A stretch of DNA of 21,647 bases from positions 1 through 21,647 of IMG/VR virus record IMGVR_UViG_3300033143_003584; one strand, 5' to 3'. The position numbers were made by a program, and so were the translations under genes. The notes beneath the pieces were generated by a model, which saw nothing but the letters and a program-made list of their open reading frames with translations, was not told the origin of the DNA and searched no databases. Source of the DNA: a virus. How positions within the stretch are numbered: the stretch's first letter is position 1; the number at the start of each line of letters is the position of its first letter. This document shows positions 4,269 through 21,647 of this stretch, one piece after another.

Positions 4269-5682
4269 TAGTCCCTCCTCCATCCCCGAATATTTCCTTA
4301 CTTGCCAAGTCAGTCTTTAAATCTTCATTTTCCTTCATAACCCGCTCAAATTCGCTTTTCTCTTTATCCTCCTTCCGCTTCTGTTCAGCCTCCATATCGA
4401 ACCCAGGCAGTTTCTCCTGGAATGCTTCATCTGAAATCTTACCCGCAATAGCAGCCGGTAAATAGATTTTCTCAATGTGTTCATACTGCTCCTTCGTTAT
4501 AATTGGAATAGTAACTTTAACTTTCTTTGGGTCCAGCTTCCGTAGCTCTGAATACTGAGCATTTAGCGCATTAGTCATTTCCATACCCTTTGCAATTACC
4601 TCATCATATGCCCCGATCCAAGTCTCCCGCTCTTTCAATGTCGATCCGCTTACAAGCTCCATGAGATTCTCCGAGGTTGAGCGGTTCGACATCAAATCAG
4701 GGAAGCCTAAAAAGTGAACTGGTATGCCAGTTGTACCGGATATCATCTTTGCAAGAGTCGTTATTTCCTTCTCCAGCGATTCTATACCCTTAATATCAGG
4801 GCTTGCAAATCCAAGCTTGCCAGTATGTACGAACATCTTTTTAATTTTCCAGTTTACCTTTGCAACTTCAGCCTTAACCTTTTTAGCAGTTTCGGCATTC
4901 TCAACTTCTATATGCGGGATAGGCGATGCAAACAACCGGTCAATCTCCCGCCAATCCCTCAAGGCTTTATCCAAATTTTCAACCTGTGTTAAGCATTTCA
5001 TGATCTTCGGAGCCGCTTCGTTTGGCTTACTTATCCGGCCCCCAAATTTCTTATATACAAATTCCTTCTCATTTAGTGTTTCGTTTTTATCTTTATCTTT
5101 CGGCTTCCAGGTTAACTTTGTATATTTAGTATAATCCTGCGGGTCTGTTTCCACTTTATATTTCTTATCTGTCCAGCTTATAAACCGGACTGTTATCATA
5201 TCAACATCTTTATCATCTACTTTCACTTTATCATGCGCAAGTTTCAGGGCAATTTTCCCCTCAATCTCAGCCTCTTTTGCAAACTCCTGAACTATCTCCT
5301 GGTCTAAATCATTATATTCTAAAAATCGTTTAGTCCATTCCACTTCCGCTTCTGCGCCTTCCTCAACCTCTACAACCTCCAGTCCTTCGCCTATAATAAA
5401 AGCAGCCCGGAGGTCAATAATACTCCCCGCTTGCAGTACGCCCCAATCAGCGGTTCCGACATATTTATTATTTATCTCCTCAACCGCGCCTGAATAAGAT
5501 GTATATTTATTCCCGACATAGCTTGATTTCGCTTCAGTCAGACTTAATAGATTATTTTTTACAAGCGCTTGGAGTTTTTTAACCTGCGTTTCAAGTCGTT
5601 CATGCCTGCCCTTCTGGAATTGCAGCCGTGTGCGCATTGCCTGGACATTTGTAATATCTTTAATCCCTTTAAAAATATTCAT
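4252..5682 (-). CDS. Portal protein
   Basis: A 476-residue protein directly downstream of the large terminase gene, with size, order and composition of phage portal proteins. It has an N-terminal helical, basic part (about 1-60), an alpha/beta core with WGVLQAGSIIDLRAAFIIGE and a TTGIPVHFLGFPDLMSN segment followed by ENLMELVSGSTLKERETW, characteristic of the portal clip and crown region, and a C-terminal charged tail (KEDKEKSEFERV). Portals form the dodecameric ring at the head vertex through which terminase pumps DNA. The start codon overlaps the terminase stop by one base. I cannot decide between portal subfamilies. Confidence 0.85.
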   Translation of the reverse strand: MNIFKGIKDITNVQAMRTRLQFQKGRHERLETQVKKLQALVKNNLLSLTEAKSSYVGNKYTSYSGAVEEINNKYVGTADWGVLQAGSIIDLRAAFIIGEGLEVVEVEEGAEAEVEWTKRFLEYNDLDQEIVQEFAKEAEIEGKIALKLAHDKVKVDDKDVDMITVRFISWTDKKYKVETDPQDYTKYTKLTWKPKDKDKNETLNEKEFVYKKFGGRISKPNEAAPKIMKCLTQVENLDKALRDWREIDRLFASPIPHIEVENAETAKKVKAEVAKVNWKIKKMFVHTGKLGFASPDIKGIESLEKEITTLAKMISGTTGIPVHFLGFPDLMSNRSTSENLMELVSGSTLKERETWIGAYDEVIAKGMEMTNALNAQYSELRKLDPKKVKVTIPIITKEQYEHIEKIYLPAAIAGKISDEAFQEKLPGFDMEAEQKRKEDKEKSEFERVMKENEDLKTDLASKEIFGDGGGTNAVSE

Positions 5683-6917
5683 TAGTACACTGCCCCCCCT
5701 ACCATTTCAGCAAATGCCTGCTCCGGCACTCTGCAATGAGTATCAATACCATATCTGACCGCATCCATATGATGATTGTTGATTTTCACTGGCTCTGGCA
5801 ATGGATTCCCCTCTTTATCCTCTTTATATTTATATCGCTTTCGTTCGCTTTCAATATGCTCAGACCCTTTTATAATATGTATCGTTTTACTCTTTAAAAA
5901 ATCTATGCCAGCTCTTACTGAATCCGGCCCTTTCTGACATGGCTTTATATTAAATCCCATCTCTGCGATCTCATCAATCGACTTAGGCTCGGCTGAATCT
6001 GCATATATATCCTCATATTCTGCTATACCTTTCTCTTTCATCTTAAATCCTAATTTCTGATTTGTCAACTTTGTTTCATGAATTACTTCCTCCAGCCAGA
6101 ACTCATCAGCCTTCCGGTATATCCGGTCTAGTGCTGCAGGATCTACGCTATACCCGAAATCAAGCCCGTAGAATATCTCATCATAAAACTTCCCTTCCGG
6201 TTTATCAACTACATCCCAGTTATATATGATCCCTTTAGCCAGCGCCCATTGGCCCAACCGGTAAATCGAGTAATACACCTTATCACCTAAGCGCTCAAGC
6301 TTTTTCAGGTACTCTCTACGCACTTCCTCAATCGGGTTATCCTCAACAGTTGAATGATGTATATATGAACCTTCAAGCTTACCTGGCCCGGTTTTAGGAT
6401 ATTCATCATAGAAAAACATGCTTTTAATCCAGGGACCGGCAGCCTCATCCGGGTTAAATGTCATGAGGATCTGCTTATAATATTTTGTTGGTTCCCTCAG
6501 CCGTAAATCAAGCTGTGTGAAGTCATTTAAGGAAAATTCAGTCGTCTCCTCAAGCCAATATGATGTTATCCCTTTAATCGACTTGATTTTATCCGGATCA
6601 TCTAAGCCGTCAAATAGCAGCTCATTTTTCTGACCCTGCGGATTGTAAAATATGATTATCCGGTCAACTTTGTTATGCGTATATTTAATCTCATTTTGAT
6701 TTAGCACATCTTCCATCACAGCCAGCACGGACTCCCGACATCTTGACCGCACCTTGCGCATAATGAGTATCCTGTGATTGCCTTCCTTCATGCAGCGATA
6801 AAAGACTTTCCTGGCTGCAAACTCTGATTTACCAGAGCCAGCCCCTCCGCATAGCAGTAGATATTGGCTATCATTCTCTAAGAGCGGCCGGAAGGATTCA
6901 CTTACCGTTATTTTCAT
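5682..6917 (-). CDS. terL: Terminase large subunit (PBSX-type)
   Basis: A 411-residue packaging motor and nuclease. Walker A is GGAGSGKS (24-31) and Walker B is SYWLEETTEF (119-128, catalytic Glu123/124). The nuclease domain shows the three acid sites D253 (GLDFGYS), D307 (YADSAEP) and D385 (NHHMDAVRYG). The arrangement fits the PBSX/Terminase_3 family: it cuts concatemers and drives DNA into the prohead. It is complete. AAAGGA lies upstream of the ATG, the gene overlaps the small-subunit gene by 20 bases, and portal follows with a one-base overlap. All catalytic motifs are present, so it should be active. Confidence 0.95.
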   Translation of the reverse strand: MKITVSESFRPLLENDSQYLLLCGGAGSGKSEFAARKVFYRCMKEGNHRILIMRKVRSRCRESVLAVMEDVLNQNEIKYTHNKVDRIIIFYNPQGQKNELLFDGLDDPDKIKSIKGITSYWLEETTEFSLNDFTQLDLRLREPTKYYKQILMTFNPDEAAGPWIKSMFFYDEYPKTGPGKLEGSYIHHSTVEDNPIEEVRREYLKKLERLGDKVYYSIYRLGQWALAKGIIYNWDVVDKPEGKFYDEIFYGLDFGYSVDPAALDRIYRKADEFWLEEVIHETKLTNQKLGFKMKEKGIAEYEDIYADSAEPKSIDEIAEMGFNIKPCQKGPDSVRAGIDFLKSKTIHIIKGSEHIESERKRYKYKEDKEGNPLPEPVKINNHHMDAVRYGIDTHCRVPEQAFAEMVGGAVY

Positions 6918-7254
6918 TTTTATCCTTTATGTGGATCGTCTCAACTATAAGCTTACTATCTATTTCACCTGAATGCTCTATGTCCTTTTTATCAGTCTGG
7001 TCTAATACCTGCTTTCCAAGCCATATAAGCATAGCAACATTACCCAGCATAGCAACTTCAAATTGCTTTTTTCGGAGCCGTATTTTACCCTGTTCCCTTC
7101 CTTTTTCAATAACCGTTGCAAATCGCCTGCTTATAGTAGATTTATTACAATCAAAAAAAGACGCAATTTCAGATGTAGTGCATCCATAAGAAGCTAATGC
7201 CTCAACCTGTTTAGCATCTATTTTTGTTAGTTTCCTTCCTGCTTTCTTTGCCAT
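6898..7254 (-). CDS. terS: Terminase small subunit (HTH protein)
   Basis: A 118-residue protein with an N-terminal helix-turn-helix at about residues 12-45 (IDAKQVEALASYGCTTSEIA with SISRRF-like recognition helix STISRRF), followed by helices for oligomerisation and a charged C-terminus. Its position directly before the large subunit and its HTH make it the small terminase subunit, which recognises the packaging site and recruits TerL. The HTH resembles those of resolvases and other small subunits, so specificity is unknown. Its ATG is directly next to the PAPS-reductase-like gene's stop. Confidence 0.85.
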   Translation of the reverse strand: MAKKAGRKLTKIDAKQVEALASYGCTTSEIASFFDCNKSTISRRFATVIEKGREQGKIRLRKKQFEVAMLGNVAMLIWLGKQVLDQTDKKDIEHSGEIDSKLIVETIHIKDKNENNGK

Positions 7255-8229
7255 TTATTTATTATATCCTAATATCGGCTTTTTCCTTGTAAAGTCAAAC
7301 AGCCAGGGCATATTTCTTGCTATATAGCGCAGGCCGCCTATTTCCTTGACGGCCATTTCAATCTGATTTAAATGAGCTTTATAACGGAGTGCCAGGATTA
7401 TCAAGCCGCCCCTCCATCCAACCATAAATTTATACCATGCTAATGGCCAAGTTTTTCTCAATATCCGGTAACCAGAATTTGTATATTGACTACCACCTCC
7501 ACAATATACACAACCTATAGTCTTGGCCCCTCTTGTCCGAGCCGGATGCTCTGGTAAATTATGTGCTTTGATATAGCCATTAATTTCAGCATCCGTCCAG
7601 CCATTTAAAGGATTAGCAACCCAGAGGTTATCTTTAACCTGGAAATATAAATCACCATCTTTTATATTTCTCAACCCTCTTAGATTGTCATCTGTCTTTC
7701 CCCGCTGCCCTGTAATCTGAACATTACAACCTGATTTTTTAGTCATTATCCTGGCTGGGACTATCTTCATTGCTCTACAGCATTCTGATACATTTATTTT
7801 AAACCCCATCTGTCCTCTATTTTTCTGCATCCAGATTCTTGCAGCCATCTTCCCTAGCATAGGCCAGCCTGTCGCTTTCCATTGCTCCATTGGAGTCCTA
7901 TTTGATACTGCTATTCTTAAATCCAGATTATAACTATTTGCTATTTTTTTAATATATTCCTCAGTTCCCGGATATTCCATTTGAGAATCAGCCCAGATTA
8001 TAGTTGGCTCATATCCGGCATTACACATTAAATCTAATAAAACTGAACTATCACTTCCACCGGAAAAAGCAAGGCAAGGCTTCCTGTTTGGTTTTAAAGC
8101 CCTTTCTATAACTGCCATTGATTGATCAACCCTATCTTTCCCCGCTATAGCAAATACAGTTTTTTCAGGATCCCGATGTGGGATCTTATACTCAGACTCA
8201 TTTGCTATTGCTTCGGCTAATTCATTCAT
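7255..8229 (-). CDS. PAPS-reductase-like (IbrA/DndC-type) protein
   Basis: A 324-residue PP-loop protein. It has SGGSDSS (56-62, ATP-pyrophosphatase loop), a WADSQMEYP segment, CC at 150-151 (ECCRAMKIVP), ITGQRGKTDDNLRG (172-185) and IGCVYC with C240/C243. The CC plus CxxC set is the [4Fe-4S] ligand pattern of assimilatory APS reductases, and WTDAEINGYIKAHNLP matches the conserved C-terminal region of PAPS reductases. Such proteins activate or transfer sulfur or nucleotides. In phages they occur beside ParB-like genes, as IbrA/IbrB, and related DndC acts in DNA phosphorothioation. The ATG at 8229 is chosen for its ATGA overlap with the ParB-like stop; an ATG 30 bases upstream is also in frame. 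The substrate is unknown. Confidence 0.85.
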   Translation of the reverse strand: MNELAEAIANESEYKIPHRDPEKTVFAIAGKDRVDQSMAVIERALKPNRKPCLAFSGGSDSSVLLDLMCNAGYEPTIIWADSQMEYPGTEEYIKKIANSYNLDLRIAVSNRTPMEQWKATGWPMLGKMAARIWMQKNRGQMGFKINVSECCRAMKIVPARIMTKKSGCNVQITGQRGKTDDNLRGLRNIKDGDLYFQVKDNLWVANPLNGWTDAEINGYIKAHNLPEHPARTRGAKTIGCVYCGGGSQYTNSGYRILRKTWPLAWYKFMVGWRGGLIILALRYKAHLNQIEMAVKEIGGLRYIARNMPWLFDFTRKKPILGYNK

Positions 8230-8729
8230 GGTATAAACTCGCATCCGCATTCTGGACATTTTACTTTCTCTTTCTCGGCTAATTTATCAAGCCGGGCCTG
8301 TTCTTTTACTTCACTTGGAGCAAAATCATCCAACATCCGGCCTATATTTATTGATTCACCTATATCAATATTGTAATCCTCTAATTCTATATCCTCAATA
8401 TGCGGATAAATCAATTCTGCTGCCATCTGATCATCCGTAGTCCCAATATTATCATTATCAGATAAGGCATATTTAATTTTACCAGCCTCGGAAGAAACTT
8501 CTACGACTGACAAATCAACCTCAGTATGTTTCAATTCCTGAAGTGCTCTAAGCCTCATATTACCACCTAAAACAATAAATTCCCCATTTTCAGCATAGGC
8601 AACCATCGGTTTATAAACCCCAAGCTCTGTAAGCTGCTTTAAGAGGCGTTTATAATCTTTTTTTTTGCTATTCCGGGGATTCTTATCCCAAGGCTTAACC
8701 TTTGATATCGGGACGGTTATGATATTCAT
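8226..8729 (-). CDS. ParB/Srx-fold protein (IbrB-like) with terminal zinc knuckle
   Basis: A 167-residue protein with a ParB-type N-terminal fold: the start ITVPISKVKPWDKNPRN (NPRN at 17-20) and the phosphate-binding motif GGNMRLRAL (55-63). The C-terminus ends CPECGCEFIP (C158, C161, C163), a possible zinc knuckle that could pair with another chain. ParB/sulfiredoxin-fold proteins bind and hydrolyse nucleotides; free-standing ones beside a PAPS-reductase-like gene, as IbrB with IbrA, are known in prophages and can alter gene expression. This pair lies next to the small terminase subunit and overlaps as ATGA, so it is translated as a unit. It lacks any HTH of plasmid ParB. Confidence 0.85.
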   Translation of the reverse strand: MNIITVPISKVKPWDKNPRNSKKKDYKRLLKQLTELGVYKPMVAYAENGEFIVLGGNMRLRALQELKHTEVDLSVVEVSSEAGKIKYALSDNDNIGTTDDQMAAELIYPHIEDIELEDYNIDIGESINIGRMLDDFAPSEVKEQARLDKLAEKEKVKCPECGCEFIP

Positions 8730-9877: not shown

Positions 9878-9901
9878 GAGATAAATTATTTTAAAATAAA
9901 C

Positions 9902-9936: not shown

Positions 9937-10425
9937 ATGCGAAAATGTAAAGATTGTGGAAAAGTAAAAAATAGTAAAGATTTTTATTTAAATAATAAGG
10001 GTTATTATAGCCCTTATTGTAAAGAATGCCATAGAAAAAGAACTGCTCTCTGGCGGAAAAACAACCCCCAGAGATTTAAAGAACTTTGTGCAAAAGCAAT
10101 GGCAAAAAAAAGGACTAATCCTGATTATAGAAAAAGCCAGGCTGAATTTTACAGGAAATGGTATGCTAAATCTGGAAGAAAGAGGGCAAAAAATTATTCA
10201 GAAGTAAATAAATTATGGCAAAAATTAAATCCTGAAAAATGCAAAGCTTCAAAACTGGTAGAAATGGCCCTGAAAACGGGCAAACTTAAAAAATCAATCT
10301 ATTGTTCTGAATGTGGACATAAGCGGAAATTGGTTGGTCACCATGATAATTACGAATTCCCTCTTAAAGTTAGATGGCTTTGTTATTCTTGTCATAAAAA
10401 TATTCATAATAATAAAAATTTATAA
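9937..10425 (+). CDS. Zinc-binding HNH-like protein on the opposite strand
   Basis: The only plus-strand gene in the window, 162 residues. The first zinc site is C4, C7, C28, C31 (CKDCG...YCKECH) and the second is C123, C126, C150, C153 (CSECG...CYSCH) with HH at 135-136 and a final H157. The second half (GHHDNYEFPLKVRWLCYSCH) matches a recurrent phage domain related to HNH nucleases. Between them is a Lys/Arg-rich helical linker, suggesting nucleic-acid binding. Its lone opposite orientation, its own promoter and AT-richness fit a mobile HNH-like gene (moron or homing endonuclease type). Whether it cuts DNA is not certain because the HNH Asn is not obvious. Confidence 0.75.
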   Translation: MRKCKDCGKVKNSKDFYLNNKGYYSPYCKECHRKRTALWRKNNPQRFKELCAKAMAKKRTNPDYRKSQAEFYRKWYAKSGRKRAKNYSEVNKLWQKLNPEKCKASKLVEMALKTGKLKKSIYCSECGHKRKLVGHHDNYEFPLKVRWLCYSCHKNIHNNKNL

Positions 10426-14085: not shown

Positions 14086-14832
14086 TTATAACCTCGCAGT
14101 ATATTTAAAATCTTTATGCTCCCTCCACTTATCAGACCGCAGCCAGGTTGAAGCATATTTTTTCCTTTTATCGAAATTATTAACCAGCCTTTCATATTTT
14201 AAATAATCAGCCTCCCCCCAAAGTGCTTTTATTAACTCATCTTTACCTATTTTTTTTCGTAGTGCTTTAAATGCTTTATATGCCGTTCCTTTATCCCCTA
14301 TTGGATTTTTAGAATTTCCCATAGCTTTATAACCTTCCCAGAATTCTTCAAATTCTTCTTCTAATTCGGTTTTTTTAGGCGATGGTTTTTCGGGTGTATG
14401 TTTATTTAACTTCTCTTTACTTATATTAACTTCTCTTATGGTGGCGTCCTCCTGGATAACTCCTGGAGTAATGATGGAACCTTTCGATGGGGCTGGTATT
14501 TTTGAATCACTTTCCCGGTCTCTTCTAATACTTTGCAGTTCATTGAATTTTGTAAATTGAAGATAATTTTCCCCATTTACTGAATAAAGAATTATTAATT
14601 TTGCATCATTTAATATATCAATAAGGCTGCTAATTTTCCTTAATGACATTGATTTAACTTTTGGGAATATATGGCCTTTTATAATTTCAATATCAGCAGA
14701 ATGCCTACCCTCTACATCAAGCCAGGGAATTAACCAAGTGTATAAAAGACGTGCTGAATCAGATTTTAATTTACCTAATTTTTTACTTTCTGATATAACC
14801 CTTTTTAACATACGCCCTTCAGCCATTGTCAT
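14086..14832 (-). CDS. Replisome organizer-type replication protein
   Basis: A 248-residue phage replication initiation protein. The N-terminal third has MAEGRMLKRVISESKKLGKL, then SARLLYTWLIPWLDVEGRHS and IIKGHIFPKV, which is the typical winged-helix start of replisome organizers. The middle is a Pro/Ser/Lys linker (about 125-160) and the C-terminus carries a helical EFWEGYKAM...KALRKKIGKDEL domain with WLRSDKWREH, reminiscent of DnaD/DnaT-like helicase loaders. It should recognise the origin and recruit the host helicase. It overlaps the preceding nuclease-like gene by 14 bases; a second ATG two codons in is also possible. Confidence 0.8.
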   Translation of the reverse strand: MTMAEGRMLKRVISESKKLGKLKSDSARLLYTWLIPWLDVEGRHSADIEIIKGHIFPKVKSMSLRKISSLIDILNDAKLIILYSVNGENYLQFTKFNELQSIRRDRESDSKIPAPSKGSIITPGVIQEDATIREVNISKEKLNKHTPEKPSPKKTELEEEFEEFWEGYKAMGNSKNPIGDKGTAYKAFKALRKKIGKDELIKALWGEADYLKYERLVNNFDKRKKYASTWLRSDKWREHKDFKYTARL

Positions 14833-15424
14833 TTAATCCTTTAATATTTTCTAAAGAAAATTTTAAATATTTATTGTCAAAATATTTCCTATTAATGATA
14901 AAATTAAATGTAGTTTTTTGCTCATCTGTTAGGGTTTTATTAATTCTTATTTCTTTAGGATTAGTGTAATTTCCAATCCACTTTCCTATTCCTTTCCGGA
15001 TATCCTCAAAACAGAATCTATATACTTCATTTTTTAAAGGAGCATAATATAATAAATATTTCGCTGGTGATCTAAAAGCCCATCCTAAATAATGAATTGA
15101 ATCAGATTTAACAAAATGATTTATTCTCATAAATTCAAACAAGAAATTCTCACTAATCCCTAAATTTTTATCTGATTTTATTTCTGCCAATCTTAATTTT
15201 CCATCTATATTTTCAATTATAATATCTGCATCAAGTCTCTGAGTTATTCTCCATTCTCTAACATCAATTACATTTCTTACATTATCTTTTAAACTTTTAA
15301 GCCATTTAATAACAATCTCTTCAGCCTTTTTTCCTTTATTCATTAATTCACCATTATAAGATTTTTCTGGTTTTATAAGGTTCCCATAATTTAAAAATAA
15401 ATCAGGATCATTATGATCATTCAT
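14819..15424 (-). CDS. PD-(D/E)XK-like nuclease-fold protein
   Basis: A 201-residue protein with a region resembling the PD-(D/E)XK nuclease core: NKGKKAEEIVIKWLKS (acid at 35/36 in the first helix), ITQRLDADIIIENIDG (D65/D67) and LRLAEIKSDK (E81, K83). The ATG at 15424 is picked for GGGGG a suitable distance upstream; earlier in-frame ATGs at 15442 and 15430 exist. It lies between an adenine methyltransferase and the replication initiator and overlaps both. It might be a restriction-like partner of the methyltransferase or a DNA-processing enzyme. The remaining half (after residue 95) is unrelated to any domain I recognise. Confidence 0.55.
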   Translation of the reverse strand: MNDHNDPDLFLNYGNLIKPEKSYNGELMNKGKKAEEIVIKWLKSLKDNVRNVIDVREWRITQRLDADIIIENIDGKLRLAEIKSDKNLGISENFLFEFMRINHFVKSDSIHYLGWAFRSPAKYLLYYAPLKNEVYRFCFEDIRKGIGKWIGNYTNPKEIRINKTLTDEQKTTFNFIINRKYFDNKYLKFSLENIKGLNDNG

Positions 15425-16412
15425 ATTCATTCCCCCAACCATCCCATTCTATTCTTTTTTCTCTTGCAAAAAGTTCTAAATATGGACCTGAATACATTTC
15501 TTCTATAATTTCATAAAGTTCTTCAGGTTTTTTTGAATGTTTAGATTTTATTGAAGATATGATAGAAGGAAAAAGTTTTTTCGGTAAAAAAGAACCCTTT
15601 GCCGCTATAAATAAAAGTTCATGCTGCCCATAACAATAAAATCCTAATTTCCCATATGTTGATTTATCTTTTATCCATGCCATATTTGTCTTATATTCAA
15701 AACCCCAGGCTTCACATACTTCTAAGCCTTCTTTTAAAAAAGAATTCGGAACCCATAAAAACAAAACTGCATTCTCAGTTGTTCTTGAATTAACTGGTAA
15801 ATCACATATCTCATCTAAAGACATAGTTTTATAATGTTTTTCAGCGCTCCCACCTAACCCGGAATTATCAAATTGCCAGGGTGGGTCTGCATAAATTACC
15901 GAATATTTTTCAGGTTCATTGGCAAGTCTTATTTTCTCTTGCTGATTTCTTTTATATTCTTCAACAAGCCCTTTTAATTCCCTAACTGATAAATTATCTT
16001 TTTCAGCTTGCTTTAAAAGCTCCTGCATTTTTTCTTTATCTGGCTTTTTTGACAATTCAAGTTTGTCGGCTATTTCTTCTATTTGTTTAATAGAGGCGAC
16101 TTCTTTATGATGCGACCAAGAAAGAATCTTGTTACGTAACAAGATTTCATATTTTTCAGAAATACTTTTAAAGGTCATAAGGCTTGTTTTGTCCATTCCT
16201 AATATTTTTTCAGCTTCTTTATAAAGCCCATCTCCATAATGTTTTTTACCATCTTTCAGCCAATCCCCTATAGCCCATTGCTTAGCTTCATCAACTCGCT
16301 TTAAAATTTCTCCATATTTTCGCCATTCATCAAGAGTAGATTGTCTTATTATTTCTGTCCCTACAAAAGTTGTTAAATATGCGCTTGTTCTTAATTGAAG
16401 TTCATCGCTCAA
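15417..16412 (-). CDS. MT-A70-family adenine methyltransferase with N-terminal helical DNA-binding domain
   Basis: A 331-residue protein. The first about 155 residues are helical and charged (WAIGDWLKDGKKHYGDGLYK ... SWSHHKEVASIKQ ... LSVRELKGLVEE), like domains found before phage MT-A70 enzymes. The catalytic domain has the N6-adenine methyltransferase motif DPPW (176-179) in VIYADPPWQFDNSGLGGSAE, then KHYKTMS, a FLWVP segment and ELLFIAAKG. It should methylate adenine in DNA to evade host restriction or to regulate. The start is TTG (16412) with AAAGGAG at good spacing. A promoter and structured leader lie upstream. Confidence 0.9.
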   Translation of the reverse strand: MSDELQLRTSAYLTTFVGTEIIRQSTLDEWRKYGEILKRVDEAKQWAIGDWLKDGKKHYGDGLYKEAEKILGMDKTSLMTFKSISEKYEILLRNKILSWSHHKEVASIKQIEEIADKLELSKKPDKEKMQELLKQAEKDNLSVRELKGLVEEYKRNQQEKIRLANEPEKYSVIYADPPWQFDNSGLGGSAEKHYKTMSLDEICDLPVNSRTTENAVLFLWVPNSFLKEGLEVCEAWGFEYKTNMAWIKDKSTYGKLGFYCYGQHELLFIAAKGSFLPKKLFPSIISSIKSKHSKKPEELYEIIEEMYSGPYLELFAREKRIEWDGWGNEYE

Positions 16413-16651: not shown

Positions 16652-17311
16652 TTATTTCAGCCCCTTTTTAAGCTGATAAATGCTTAAGCAATTCCTAAAT
16701 ATCTTCCACGCTATATCTAAATGGTCGCTGCCTATCTTCTTCTCAACAAATGACTCATCTCCTGTACGTGGAATATTTAATATCCGAACTGATTCAACCT
16801 TATGCCCATTCTCAAGTAATAGCTGCCTATAGGCTGTAACTTGAATCACCATCTCCTGATATATGCCGCTTCCAGTTTTAAGGTCTATAAGCTCTACCAC
16901 TCCATCAACTTTAGCAAATATATCAGCCGTCCCTCCGTAAAAGTACTTCTCCGATACTAAAGGCGCTTCAATAAGTATAGGCTCAATCTTCTTGCCCTTC
17001 GCCCATTCAAAATATGATAACGCTGAATTCTCCGCAGCGGCGATCTGGTTTTTACTATAATCATCCGTATCCGTCTTTATACCCTGAAGATGATCTGTAA
17101 CTATTGCATGCGCCAGCGTCCCGATAGCTGCTTTATCGTCAACATATTTAGTCGTGTCAATTCCCTGCAGCCCCATCCGGTTGGCCCAATTAATCAAGAC
17201 TCGCTTACTCCAGCCCAACTCTCCAGTAAATGTTGTTACCCCTGGGACCCGCTTACCGGATTTTAGCTTATAAACTATGTGTGCTTTGTGTTTTTTAGAA
17301 GGGGAGGGCAT
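16652..17311 (-). CDS. PD-(D/E)XK exonuclease (Cas4/RecB-like)
   Basis: A 219-residue nuclease. Motifs: GTLAHAIVTDHL (His68), LIEAPLV (E115), YGGTADIFAKVD (D130), VELIDLKTG (D143, K145) and VIQVTAYRQLL (Gln157, Tyr161). These are the H, E/D, D, ExK and QxxxY elements of the RecB/Cas4 family. Paired with the Rad52-like annealing protein upstream it would degrade one strand of broken DNA to make single strands for annealing, as lambda Exo does for Beta. The ATG at 17311 has AGGAG seven bases before it, better than the in-frame TTG six bases upstream. It overlaps the Rad52-like stop and is followed by a strong terminator. Confidence 0.85.
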   Translation of the reverse strand: MPSPSKKHKAHIVYKLKSGKRVPGVTTFTGELGWSKRVLINWANRMGLQGIDTTKYVDDKAAIGTLAHAIVTDHLQGIKTDTDDYSKNQIAAAENSALSYFEWAKGKKIEPILIEAPLVSEKYFYGGTADIFAKVDGVVELIDLKTGSGIYQEMVIQVTAYRQLLLENGHKVESVRILNIPRTGDESFVEKKIGSDHLDIAWKIFRNCLSIYQLKKGLK

Positions 17312-18131
17312 CGTCAATCTCCTGATAAGCCTTAATCATTAGCGCATACATTTTTGGCATACTTACATCCGGGATCATGTTGGATTTTTTATAGCCAGCA
17401 TCTTCTAAAATCTTATAATACTCTACATCTCCTATAGCCTTTTTAATCTTGCCAAAATATTCTAAAGCTTCAAATTTAGTTACCTTACGCTCTGTGCCAT
17501 CAGTCATTATAAGCGTTATATCCCGGAAGCCATCTGCGGTATCAACTTCGGGATATGACTCAAATCCAGCCTCATCCGATATTCCCTCATTTGATTCTGC
17601 TGCTGGATCCGGAGCCGGACCCTTATCTTTCTTTTTGCCATTACCATTTTTAGCTTTAGTAACTCCACTATAAACATCCCAAGCTATGCCCAACATTGAG
17701 GCGGCTTTTTTTGTCGCATCACTTTGAGCCGATTTTAAATCATCTGCGATATCAATAACATCCCCTCCACCTTTTTTCCGCTTAACATCGCTTCCGCCAA
17801 AGGCATCCTTGGATACTTCTGTCCCATCTCCAAACCGCACCTTTAATCTAAGATGAACATAAACTTGAGTTTTCCCGATTTCTTTATCAATTATTTCTAC
17901 GCTCCAATTGAATCCGAATATCGCATTTAACATAGCAATCACATAATTAATATTGACATAATCGAACAACTTCCCGCCTCGACCTTCTCGCTTCTGTATA
18001 TAGCACTCCGGAGTCATGCTTGCCAATGCTTTAACCTGTTCAGCTGTCGCCATACCAGTTACAGCAAGTGGCATCTTATCTTTACCTACGTGGACAATCT
18101 GTATATCTGATTTTTTCTTTGCTTCTGTCAT
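17295..18131 (-). CDS. Rad52/Rad22-like single-strand annealing protein
   Basis: A 278-residue recombinase. Its N-terminal core (about 45-160) has YVNINYVIAMLNAIFGFNWS, DAFGGSD and DLKSAQSDATKKAASMLGIA, the signature of Rad52-type annealing proteins. A Lys/Gly/Ala linker (about 160-200) leads to a helical end that terminates in EIDDALPF, very like the acidic tip of single-stranded DNA-binding proteins (DDDIPF). The protein would coat and anneal single strands made by the exonuclease downstream, with which it overlaps. The SSB-like tail may recruit host SSB-interacting partners. Family from sequence; partner binding is inference. Confidence 0.85.
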   Translation of the reverse strand: MTEAKKKSDIQIVHVGKDKMPLAVTGMATAEQVKALASMTPECYIQKREGRGGKLFDYVNINYVIAMLNAIFGFNWSVEIIDKEIGKTQVYVHLRLKVRFGDGTEVSKDAFGGSDVKRKKGGGDVIDIADDLKSAQSDATKKAASMLGIAWDVYSGVTKAKNGNGKKKDKGPAPDPAAESNEGISDEAGFESYPEVDTADGFRDITLIMTDGTERKVTKFEALEYFGKIKKAIGDVEYYKILEDAGYKKSNMIPDVSMPKMYALMIKAYQEIDDALPF

Positions 18132-18978: not shown

Positions 18979-19344
18979 TCATTTCAATAACCGTACAGGC
19001 AATTCTATGATTTTCAAATCTGCAATAAACTTCTCACAATCTACAGCCTCTCCAATAAGGGTATTTTCCAATTCCTTATGTTTTTTAATTTCCTTTTTTA
19101 AAGTTTCTGCTCTATCATGCGTTGTGTTCTTTATCCATTTTATCAACTCTATACTTGTGTTATAAGCATCCTCAATCGTCAAAAGGATAAACCCAGGATC
19201 ACCTTCTCTTCCTATAATAGTGCCGCCTAACCCCTGGGTAACTTGAATCATCAACCCCTTTTCCTTGCCGCCCCAAAAGGATGTAAATTGCAAATCTACT
19301 CCCTTCCTCCCCGTATTTTCGATTGTTTTTAATTCTGTACTCAT
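18979..19344 (-). CDS. 121-residue conserved hypothetical protein of the early region
   Basis: It begins MSTELKTIENTGRKGVDLQF, has a Gly-rich beta part (FWGGKEKGLMIQVTQGLGG, then GDPGFILLTIEDA) and ends in a long charged helix (RAETLKKEIKKHKELENTLI and further). An AAGGAGGT site precedes the ATG. The beta plus coiled-helix shape is seen in many phage early proteins of unknown role. The gene ends before the gap with the plus-strand promoter. Confidence 0.65.
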   Translation of the reverse strand: MSTELKTIENTGRKGVDLQFTSFWGGKEKGLMIQVTQGLGGTIIGREGDPGFILLTIEDAYNTSIELIKWIKNTTHDRAETLKKEIKKHKELENTLIGEAVDCEKFIADLKIIELPVRLLK

Positions 19345-19364
19345 TTTATCTTACCTCCTTCGTT

Positions 19365-19433
19365 TTATTCATTATCTGATAATATCTCCAAAATCCTTTT
19401 TAGACCAAGTAGAATTCCTTGTAAGGTGGTCAT
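19365..19433 (-). CDS. Possible 22-residue peptide
   Basis: An ATG (19433) in the stop of the upstream gene (ATGA) opens a frame of 22 codons, MTTLQGILLGLKRILEILSD then NE, ending 20 bases before the next gene's ATG. It is amphipathic helical. The overlap and its fit between two genes favour translation, but such a short frame can arise by chance. Confidence 0.4.
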   Translation of the reverse strand: MTTLQGILLGLKRILEILSDNE

Positions 19434-19546
19434 TTCCTCAAATCCTCTTTAAGCTTTTTAGCCAGCTTCATGATCAAATCCCTGCCAATAAAGATCAGGA
19501 ATACATCAGCTAAAAGTAGGATGATAAGGATTGTTTTGATGGTCAT
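19430..19546 (-). CDS. 38-residue single-pass membrane peptide
   Basis: The ATG (19546) overlaps the regulator gene stop as ATGA. The product has a hydrophobic helix TIKTILIILLLADVFLIFIG and a basic helical tail (MKLAKKLKEDLRK). It is a small membrane peptide coded directly behind the regulator and presumably transcribed with it. Its stop overlaps the next ATG. No family is recognised. Confidence 0.6.
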   Translation of the reverse strand: MTIKTILIILLLADVFLIFIGRDLIMKLAKKLKEDLRK

Positions 19547-19842
19547 GTCAACCGCTCCAGCTTATCTTGTAATTTTTTAATATCTTCTTTCAATTCATGT
19601 TTTTTAATATCACTGAGCTTTATTAACCCTAAATATTCAGCAACCCTCAAAGCAAGTTCATCTGAAGGTTCTACTGTTTTTTTTTGCCAATTTAACAGTG
19701 TTAGATATGTTATCCGGCATTCCTTAGCAGTCTTCCACTTTGACAATCCTTTCTTTTTTAACAATGCCTTAAGGTTATTGCCTGTGATTTTTGATTTAAG
19801 CAATATTAAATCTTTATTGCTTGCCTTGTTACTTACATTCAT
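19543..19842 (-). CDS. XRE/Cro-like helix-turn-helix regulator with C-terminal coiled coil
   Basis: A 99-residue DNA-binding protein. The HTH spans about 22-72 (LKALLKKKGLSKWKTAKECR as first helices, ITYLTLLNWQKK as recognition region, ELALRVAEYLGL), like phage Cro/CI proteins. The end (DIKKHELKEDIKKLQDKLER) is a short coiled coil for dimerisation. GGAG lies nine bases before the ATG. Its promoter carries palindromic operators, so it probably controls its own synthesis. There is no protease-sensitive C-terminal domain, so it is a Cro-like regulator more than a lysogeny repressor. Confidence 0.75.
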   Translation of the reverse strand: MNVSNKASNKDLILLKSKITGNNLKALLKKKGLSKWKTAKECRITYLTLLNWQKKTVEPSDELALRVAEYLGLIKLSDIKKHELKEDIKKLQDKLERLT

Positions 19843-19867
19843 AGTTTTTAGCTCCTATACATGATTA

Positions 19868-19899
19868 TATACTATTTATCATATACTATAGATAGTATA
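19868..19899. promoter_or_regulatory. Palindromic operator pair in the regulator promoter
   Basis: O1 is the perfect palindrome TATACTATAGATAGTATA (19882-19899), lying in the spacer of the promoter. O2 is TATACTATTTATCATATA (19868-19885), with two mismatches, centred 14 bp away and overlapping the -10. Both are suited to dimer binding by an HTH protein and would block the promoter, giving autoregulation. Confidence 0.6.
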
Positions 19900-19906
19900 C
19901 TGTCAA
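19878..19906 (-). promoter_or_regulatory. Near-consensus promoter of the HTH regulator
   Basis: Minus-strand TTGACA (19906-19901), 17 bases, TATGAT (19883-19878). Expected start near 19871, giving a leader of about 30 bases to the ATG at 19842. The best promoter of the window together with its operators. Confidence 0.7.
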
Positions 19907-19914
19907 CAAATTTC

Positions 19915-20049
19915 TCACCCCTTCCGCCTCCAATCCCCGCTCTTCCTCCGCCAGCCCCGCCGGATCTCTTTCCAGAGTGCCACTATACAGAGCAGCAGGG
20001 CTATAAAGATTAAGCTGGATGATATAGTTTTGGCGATTAGCTCGGTCAT
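19915..20049 (-). CDS. 44-residue single-pass membrane peptide
   Basis: An ATG (20049) overlaps the upstream stop as ATGA. The product has a hydrophobic helix (ISSSLIFIALLLCIVALW) and a very basic, Arg/Trp-rich tail (KEIRRGWRRKSGDWRRKG). It should sit in the membrane with the tail in the cytoplasm. It ends just upstream of the regulator promoter, so it closes the small early operon. No family is known to me. Confidence 0.6.
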   Translation of the reverse strand: MTELIAKTISSSLIFIALLLCIVALWKEIRRGWRRKSGDWRRKG

Positions 20050-20243
20050 TTATTTCCTCTTTCTTTTAAGTGCCAAACTATACCCAAATACATATCCAAA
20101 ACAAAGCATATAAACATCAATCCAGCCCAAATTAATTCCCCTGTAATAATATTTAGACACATTACCAAGAAACAAAATGCTCCTACAGTAAATCCAATCC
20201 ATTTAAATTTAAGCCTTATTGTCGATGTATTTTTCATTGACAT
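20046..20243 (-). CDS. 65-residue two-pass membrane protein
   Basis: Two hydrophobic segments (WIGFTVGAFCFLVMCLNIIT and LIWAGLMFICFVLDMYLGIV) with a short turn and a basic end, so two membrane spans. GGAGG precedes the ATG. It overlaps the next membrane peptide by ATGA. A small early membrane protein of this kind may alter the host envelope or exclude other phages; this is speculation and no family is recognised. Confidence 0.65.
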   Translation of the reverse strand: MSMKNTSTIRLKFKWIGFTVGAFCFLVMCLNIITGELIWAGLMFICFVLDMYLGIVWHLKERGNK

Positions 20244-20246
20244 TAT

Positions 20247-20447
20247 TCAACCCTCCTTTAATATAATATCATTAAGATTCATATCTAAAACAAGCTGTCC
20301 AGTATGCCGACCAAAGAACACAACCTCAGCGCGCCTTAATTCTACTTTCCCATTATACCTGAAAGGCTCGATTTCTTTGATAATCTCAACCGGAGTTCCA
20401 TATTTTGTTTTGCCTTTGAGTCCTGGGATTATTTTAATTTCTGTCAT
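20247..20447 (-). CDS. 66-residue hypothetical protein
   Basis: A small beta-rich protein (MTEIKIIPGLKGKTKYGTPV, then VELRRAEVVFFGRHTGQLV and LNDIILKEG). The start lies inside the end of the upstream membrane-protein gene. It is soluble with balanced charge. The function is unknown; it belongs to the early operon behind the promoter at 20968. Confidence 0.6.
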   Translation of the reverse strand: MTEIKIIPGLKGKTKYGTPVEIIKEIEPFRYNGKVELRRAEVVFFGRHTGQLVLDMNLNDIILKEG

Positions 20448-20583
20448 TTTTAGTTATTAACACAATTAATAAATAAATTGTTATTCCCGCCGATAAGTTG
20501 CCCTCGACAAGAAAAAGAAACATTGCACCTATGCCTAATAAGCAAGGCAGGGTCTCTGACCAAAAAGAATCTCTTAACTTCAT
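20434..20583 (-). CDS. 49-residue membrane peptide (two segments)
   Basis: A start ATG (20583) with GAGGTG six bases upstream. The product has two hydrophobic segments (LPCLLGIGAMFLFLVE and SAGITIYLLIVLIT) separated by Gly/Asn, and a polar end (KNDRN). It overlaps the next gene by 14 bases. The good site supports it. No family is recognised. Confidence 0.6.
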   Translation of the reverse strand: MKLRDSFWSETLPCLLGIGAMFLFLVEGNLSAGITIYLLIVLITKNDRN

Positions 20584-20586
20584 GTT

Positions 20587-20715
20587 TCACCTCATATAAT
20601 TTAATTGATATTGCCTAATCTTCCTCTCTCCGATCCGCTTCTGTTCCCGGATAACAACGCCCAGTACTTTTTTATCTATAGCAGATAGCTTAACTTTTTT
20701 TGTTTTCTTTTTCAT
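20587..20715 (-). CDS. 42-residue basic peptide
   Basis: The ATG (20715) is in an ATGA overlap with the stop of the upstream gene. The product MKKKTKKVKLSAIDKKVLGV and a Gln/Arg-rich helix (IREQKRIGERKIRQYQLNYM) is strongly basic and may bind nucleic acid. The frame ends just before the next gene's ribosome binding site. Supported by the overlap; function unknown. Confidence 0.55.
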   Translation of the reverse strand: MKKKTKKVKLSAIDKKVLGVVIREQKRIGERKIRQYQLNYMR

Positions 20716-20909
20716 TTCACCACCCCGGAACTATTTATTTTGATAATCAAATTGTGTATTTCGGTAATCGTCTTAGCCTTTAGATATCGCATTTCTTTAG
20801 GACTCAAGGTATCGCCTATAACTCTTTTTGCCATATGTTGGATTTGGTTTTCTGTGTAGAATAGAAAAACGTCCTCATCTGGGCTATAAAGTAGATGTTT
20901 GAATTTCAT
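20712..20909 (-). CDS. 65-residue hypothetical early protein
   Basis: First gene behind the promoter at 20968-20941, with a GGAG site. The product begins MKFKHLLYSPDEDVFLFYTE, has MAKRVIGDTLSPKEMRYLKA and ends in an amphipathic helix (ITEIHNLIIKINSSGVVK). It is soluble, alpha/beta and without a recognised domain. Its early, first position suggests a host-interaction role, unproven. Confidence 0.6.
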   Translation of the reverse strand: MKFKHLLYSPDEDVFLFYTENQIQHMAKRVIGDTLSPKEMRYLKAKTITEIHNLIIKINSSGVVK

Positions 20910-20940
20910 CCTTTTCTCCTTTCATTGTTTTATATAACCT

Positions 20941-20968
20941 ATTATATATAAAATACACCCAATGTCAA
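20941..20968 (-). promoter_or_regulatory. Early promoter
   Basis: Minus-strand TTGACA (20968-20963), a 16-base gap and TATAAT (20946-20941), both perfect. Start near 20934, about 25 bases before the ATG at 20909. It should drive the small early genes from 20909 to 19915. The 110-bp repeats lie just upstream. Confidence 0.7.
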
Positions 20969-21004
20969 GGAAAAAATACAATTATTTTAAAATAAAGTTT
21001 AACT

Positions 21005-21114
21005 GTTTTTTGATGATTTTTTCTCTCTAATCGGATTTTTGGTTTCAAATGAGAAACTAACTTTTAAAGGTAAAAAATAACCAAAAATCGCATGAACTGA
21101 GTTTAACTGATTTT
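21005..21114. repeat. 110-bp exact direct repeat, copy 1
   Basis: Copy 1 of a perfect 110-bp direct repeat, 154 bases upstream of copy 2. It contains the 11-bp inverted pair GATTTTTGGTT (21034-21044) / AACCAAAAATC (21079-21089) and the small hairpin GTTTC/GAAAC. It has stops in all frames of coding length, so it is not a coding duplication. Confidence 0.9.
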
Positions 21115-21158
21115 GATGATCTTGAATTTAAATTTGAAACTGAAAATGAGATTACAGG

Positions 21159-21268
21159 GTTTTTTGATGATTTTTTCTCTCTAATCGGATTTTTGGTTTC
21201 AAATGAGAAACTAACTTTTAAAGGTAAAAAATAACCAAAAATCGCATGAACTGAGTTTAACTGATTTT
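21159..21268. repeat. 110-bp exact direct repeat, copy 2
   Basis: Identical copy of 21005-21114, with inverted pair at 21188-21198 and 21233-21243. The 44-base spacer between copies is not repeated. The next gene ends 49 bases further on. Confidence 0.9.
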
Positions 21269-21316
21269 TGATTTTTCCATAGATGAGGTAAATTAGCCCA
21301 TTTCAGGCAAAAATGG

Positions 21317-21647
21317 TCATTTCTGCTCTAATCCGGCCTTAATTCCATCAATAAAAGCCTTTACCCGGCTCCAATCAAGCTCAGATTCCTTCATGAACTC
21401 CATGTATATACCCTTAGTTCCATCTTTTTTCTGCAAGCAATCTATAGGTAGATAAGCAGATATTACAGACCGTCCCTTTTTTTTATATTTTATGTGCAAT
21501 AAATTTTGTGCATCGAAGGTTTGCTGATTATTACCTACGTGATACTGCCCTATCCCGGCGCCCTTACCAATTAAATTACCATGCTCATCTTTACCACACC
21601 CGCAATCTTCGTGAAATCTCTGAGGTGTGCTTTTCGGGAAATTCGCT
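21317..21647 (-). CDS. C-terminal part of an unknown protein, cut by the right edge
   Basis: A frame without a start in the window runs from the right edge to a stop at 21317 and gives 109 complete codons. A short in-frame TTG (21499) is not a good start because the frame continues upstream to the edge. The visible part begins with polar residues, has a Cys-Gly-Cys-Gly segment (HEDCGCGKDEHG), then beta and helical stretches (GRSVISAYLPIDCLQKK, ELDWSRVKAFIDGIKAGL). No domain is recognised. Confidence 0.6.
   Translation of the reverse strand, partial: ANFPKSTPQRFHEDCGCGKDEHGNLIGKGAGIGQYHVGNNQQTFDAQNLLHIKYKKKGRSVISAYLPIDCLQKKDGTKGIYMEFMKESELDWSRVKAFIDGIKAGLEQK

Follow-up and report, generated by a model that had tools for sequence, protein, structure and literature searches.

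Probable recent duplication behind an exact 110-bp direct repeat upstream of an uncultured tailed phage's early promoter

The spacer that precedes the early promoter in an uncultured tailed phage contains an exact direct repeat of 110 bp. The repeat most likely reflects a recent duplication and not a conserved site for replication initiation or packaging. The stretch of DNA that was analyzed, hereafter the window, is a 21,647-base IMG/VR phage contig (21.6 kb), a fragment with nearly all of its genes on the minus strand. The repeat is real and exact in the assembled sequence and specific to this contig, and we judge the chances slightly better than even that it is a recent duplication in a fast-evolving spacer, possibly functionless itself. 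On one side of it a minus-strand gene (21317-21646) ends, and on the other is the early-gene sigma-70 promoter (20968-20941, minus strand; TTGACA-16-TATAAT), which matches the sigma-70 hexamers at 12 of 12 positions and has its promoter-side DNA kept in relatives; an earlier, sequence-only reading of this DNA was thus correct in placing the repeat upstream of an early promoter. The first early gene (20712-20909, minus strand), encoding a 65-aa protein without an assigned function, has homologues in three relatives. The last gene before the spacer is represented by its 3′ part (109 aa), its start lying beyond the contig end; no relative of it was found, and it is probably the end of the late genes. 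The right third of the window had no matches among named phages. No intrinsic terminator was found within 19000-21647 and no tRNA or tmRNA was found, and Rfam searches at gathering and permissive thresholds returned only chance matches in the repeat block.

The two copies, R1 (21005-21114) and R2 (21159-21268), are identical at all 110 of 110 bases and have a GC content of 26%; the 44-bp unique spacer U (21115-21158) separates them. The runner-up exact direct repeat in the window is just 18 bp long, which places the 110-bp repeat far beyond chance. The sequence-only reading had described an exact 110-bp repeat at 20998-21275, coordinates that are right to within a few bases, with copies 154 bases apart; that figure is the start-to-start distance, whereas the intervening gap is 44 bases. 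The 11-bp inverted pair that it reported, GATTTTTGGTT/AACCAAAAATC, is present in both copies, spanning 21034-21089 in the first (arms 21034-21044 and 21079-21089, with a 34-bp loop) and 21188-21243 in the second (arms 21188-21198 and 21233-21243). Its third, partial copy of a module can be recognized in part: AGTTTAACTG, an AGTT-T-AACT near-palindrome, occurs three times in the whole window, at 20996-21005, 21100-21109, and 21254-21263, and TTTTGATGAT occurs at 21008, 21111, and 21162 and nowhere else in the window, but only the first two places have the complete, joined module. U showed no significant alignment with the repeat unit beyond the shared motif end, and the possibility that U is a degenerate copy of the unit was rejected, with 48 of 500 shuffles scoring equally well. 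The block contains no ORF of at least 40 aa with an ATG, GTG, or TTG start and is apparently noncoding, as had been proposed.

Relatives were sought using the early genes as queries. The first early gene identified G003 (loci L004 and L007, 20.4 kb) and the more distant G004, and another early gene identified G005 (locus L012, 57.4 kb; IMGVR_UViG_3300033145_001062, 57,433 bases). G005 has a 114-base exact end overlap, probably the sign of a whole genome assembled as a circle, which would make it the complete representative of an otherwise fragmentary phage group. Near-identity to parts of the window was also seen in two short contigs, neither of which reaches the repeat. Both G003 and G005 show partial collinearity with the window and keep the promoter and the first early genes. 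The promoter-side DNA at 20912-20988 is 80% identical to L007:537-616 of G003; conservation with G003 runs through the early genes and promoter and ends at 20988, within a few bases of the first AGTTTAACTG. The same spacer in G003 and G005 is about 110-130 bp long and repeat-free, and before the early promoter it contains an AT-rich element of ~90 bp (L004:427-520 and L012:3095-3180) that is about 80% alike in the two, with a local alignment score of 106 compared with ~30 for window-repeat comparisons, shuffles, and unrelated pairs. Neither the repeat unit nor U aligned with this element better than shuffles did, and the element had no convincing match elsewhere in the window. The repeat-free spacers and the unrelated element of G003 and G005 show that the repeat is not a conserved group feature; judged by sequence comparison with these two relatives, this phage is the only one of those seen to have it. 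Two different exact stretches of the unit had no match in 2.9 million viral contigs and one exact stretch had none in 84,980 species genomes, exact-pattern scans being blind to diverged copies. BLASTN of the repeat gave only short phage matches with E values of 0.1 or worse and no plasmid matches. A recent duplication, one of the proposals of the sequence-only reading, fits the exact identity of the copies, their absence from both promoter-keeping relatives, and the lack of a copy in the searched collections.

From the repeat, its place, and its absence from the two relatives, all directly observed, we infer both the recency of the event and a mechanism for it. An AT-rich, apparently noncoding spacer separates the end of one transcription unit (gene 21317-21646) from the early promoter, and in this phage that spacer would have been replaced, or have diverged past recognition, relative to its relatives. 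A 110-bp part of it would then have been copied in direct orientation, probably by recombination or by template switching during replication. No essential function dependent on the repeat need be assumed, and the tripling of the AGTTTAACTG near-palindrome upstream of the promoter may be a side effect of the copying, by which a regulator site was possibly duplicated. Some observations sit awkwardly with this account. Had the event been a simple tandem duplication, the 44-bp U would be found on both sides. It is not, so the event would have been more complex or old copies would have been lost. The phage encodes a Rad52-type annealing protein (17295-18131, minus strand), which should delete direct repeats, and exact retention could therefore mean selection rather than recency. 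Against a recent duplication without function it can also be said that the comparison is with two relatives and that spacers evolve fast even when they are functional.

The main functional rival to a recent duplication is an operator array, in which a phage or host regulator would bind the AGTT-T-AACT near-palindromes at 20996, 21100, and 21254, loop the distant copies together, and control the early promoter at 20968-20941. We regard this as unlikely. The three AGTTTAACTG copies upstream of the promoter are confined within the window to this spot, the nearest lies 28 bp upstream of the -35 hexamer, and the early operon encodes a small helix-turn-helix (HTH) protein (19543-19842; HTH_3-like, below Pfam's cut-off). 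Phage operator arrays before early promoters are similar in that a near-palindrome recurs ahead of a strong sigma-70 promoter, but here the copies are 100-150 bp apart inside long duplicated DNA and the motif is not kept in relatives. The sequence-only reading had suggested such a regulator-binding array, and one may exist, but neither relative has AGTTTAACT in its homologous spacer (L007 has none, and G005 has one copy far from the spacer), even though G003 and G005 do encode HTH homologues with 36-37% identity. The promoter of the HTH gene itself has an inverted repeat of different sequence (19868-19899), and of the two spacings, 104 and 154 bp, at least one is not a whole number of helical turns. 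Operators may change along with their regulators, which tempers the weight of the motif's absence from relatives.

It is improbable, in our estimation, that a functional element peculiar to this phage, such as a repeated operator or a second origin, took the place of the conserved element of its relatives; if it did, two unrelated sequences would do one job at a fixed genome position. We give the same low credence to the spacer starting replication, either as the sole origin or as a second one resembling oriR of phage SPP1; the initiator would then bind the repeats, and the AT-rich DNA would serve for unwinding. SPP1 was the only useful literature parallel found for the repeat. The SPP1 initiator recognizes direct repeats at two places, oriL within its own gene (gene 38) and the intergenic oriR, which is noncoding and AT-rich and lies where transcription units meet (PMC6316719). 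The block examined here is alike in being noncoding, AT-rich (26% GC), and located at a transcription-unit boundary, with direct repeats near AT-rich DNA and an initiator gene elsewhere that has its own repeats. The likeness ends there: oriR and oriL share initiator-bound repeats, whereas the spacer with its 110-bp repeat has no word of at least 10 bases in common with the initiator gene, and the repeat architecture is missing altogether from the spacers of G003 and G005.

The origin of lambda-type phages is usually located in the linker part of the initiator gene. The replication-initiation gene of the window (14086-14832, minus strand; PHROG replication initiation protein, E = 1.7e-16) has AAGAGAAGTTAA twice in its linker (12-bp unit, 14406-14437), and at the corresponding linker place its homologue in G005 has a 15-bp unit repeated 3.4 times (42890-42940 of the reverse complement); both are candidate origin iterons. 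A lambda O-type origin within the initiator gene fits these linker repeats, a likeness that concerns gene 14086-14832 and not the 110-bp repeat. GC skew has one sign throughout and is uninformative about an origin because nearly all genes lie on one strand. The suggestion of the sequence-only reading that the repeat may be an origin is not supported: the initiator gene and its homologue have linker repeats of their own, which have no sequence in common with the 110-bp repeat. As an explanation, a spacer origin is thus weakened, with SPP1 as its best parallel.

Creation of the duplication, or alteration of its copy number, by the metagenome assembler is less probable still: the repeat is known from a single contig, no second contig spans the site, and 110 bp is near common k-mer sizes, but each copy has distinct unique flanks and the 44-bp middle is unique, unlike a simple collapse or end-joining error. 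A packaging site, also proposed by the sequence-only reading, is not supported: the terminase genes (5682-7254; small subunit 6898-7254 and large subunit 5682-6917, both minus strand) lie 14 kb from the repeat, and nothing ties it to them. Just before the terminase genes, a ParB-N-like protein (8226-8729, minus strand) adjoins a protein at 7255-8259 (minus strand) that by eye only resembles PAPS-reductase/phosphoadenosine sulfotransferase-type enzymes, and both are kept in G003 with 70-88% identity. A phage attachment site (attP) was rejected and is unlikely because no integrase family (PF00589 or PF00239) was detected in the window, which is a fragment, in G003, or in the probably complete G005.

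A cruciform or RNA hairpin was likewise rejected, whole-copy RNA and DNA folds being no better than those of shuffles (z of -1.2 to +0.7); the 56-base hairpin of copy 1 alone (21034-21089) has a predicted DNA folding energy of about -6.6 kcal/mol (z about -1.6). Phasing of AA/TT is modest, with 23 to 109 of 500 shuffles as strong or stronger. The bend predicted from wedge values is also modest, being equalled or exceeded in 23 to 85 of 300 shuffles, and the window has more strongly curved parts elsewhere. A coding remnant is very improbable: the plus strand is open for 57 codons (21061-21231) with a codon score of 0.105, a value that real genes can have (their 5th percentile is -0.007), and the minus strand is open for 81 codons across the block, but that score is also inside the range of noncoding frames (95th percentile 0.144), equally long runs arise in 12% (plus) and 6% (minus) of duplication-keeping shuffles, and there is neither a start codon nor any match to a family, phage, or plasmid with an E value below 0.8. 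As a separate observation, an exact second copy of AATTATTTTAAAATAAA (9884-9900) stands at 20980-20996, next to the repeat block. The sole long plus-strand gene of the window (9937-10425), in a low-GC island, has a zinc-finger/HNH-like motif pattern and looks like a free-standing HNH endonuclease insertion.

Elsewhere in the window is a noncoding block that is more notable than the 110-bp repeat. Located on the minus strand at 16639-16430, between the exonuclease gene (16652-17317, minus strand) and a gene for a DNA methyltransferase family protein, presumably of the adenine type (15417-16412, minus strand), it is kept in G005 with 88% identity and in G003 with 72%. Its minus strand begins with a GC-rich terminator-like hairpin and T-run (16639-16572), followed by promoter-like hexamers TTGACA/TATAGTAT (about 16570-16540) and by a candidate small RNA of ~100 nt (16533-16430) that ends in a terminator-like GC stem and T-run. 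Among the three sequences, one 11-pair helix has six compensatory changes between the window and G003 and is paired in all cells, compared with 33-54% of cells for slid versions of the same helix. A second 11-pair helix crosses the first, implying a pseudoknot or alternative folds. There was no Rfam match at threshold for the candidate RNA, which, from covariation and conservation in the alignment, may be a conserved structured phage small RNA.

If the 110-bp repeat were functional, a regulatory or replication element would have been swapped for an unrelated one while its genome position stayed fixed. If, as is most likely, the repeat is an ordinary duplication, it matters little in itself: the late-to-early spacer of this phage group would be one that changes fast, and the case would serve as a warning against calling every noncoding direct repeat an origin.
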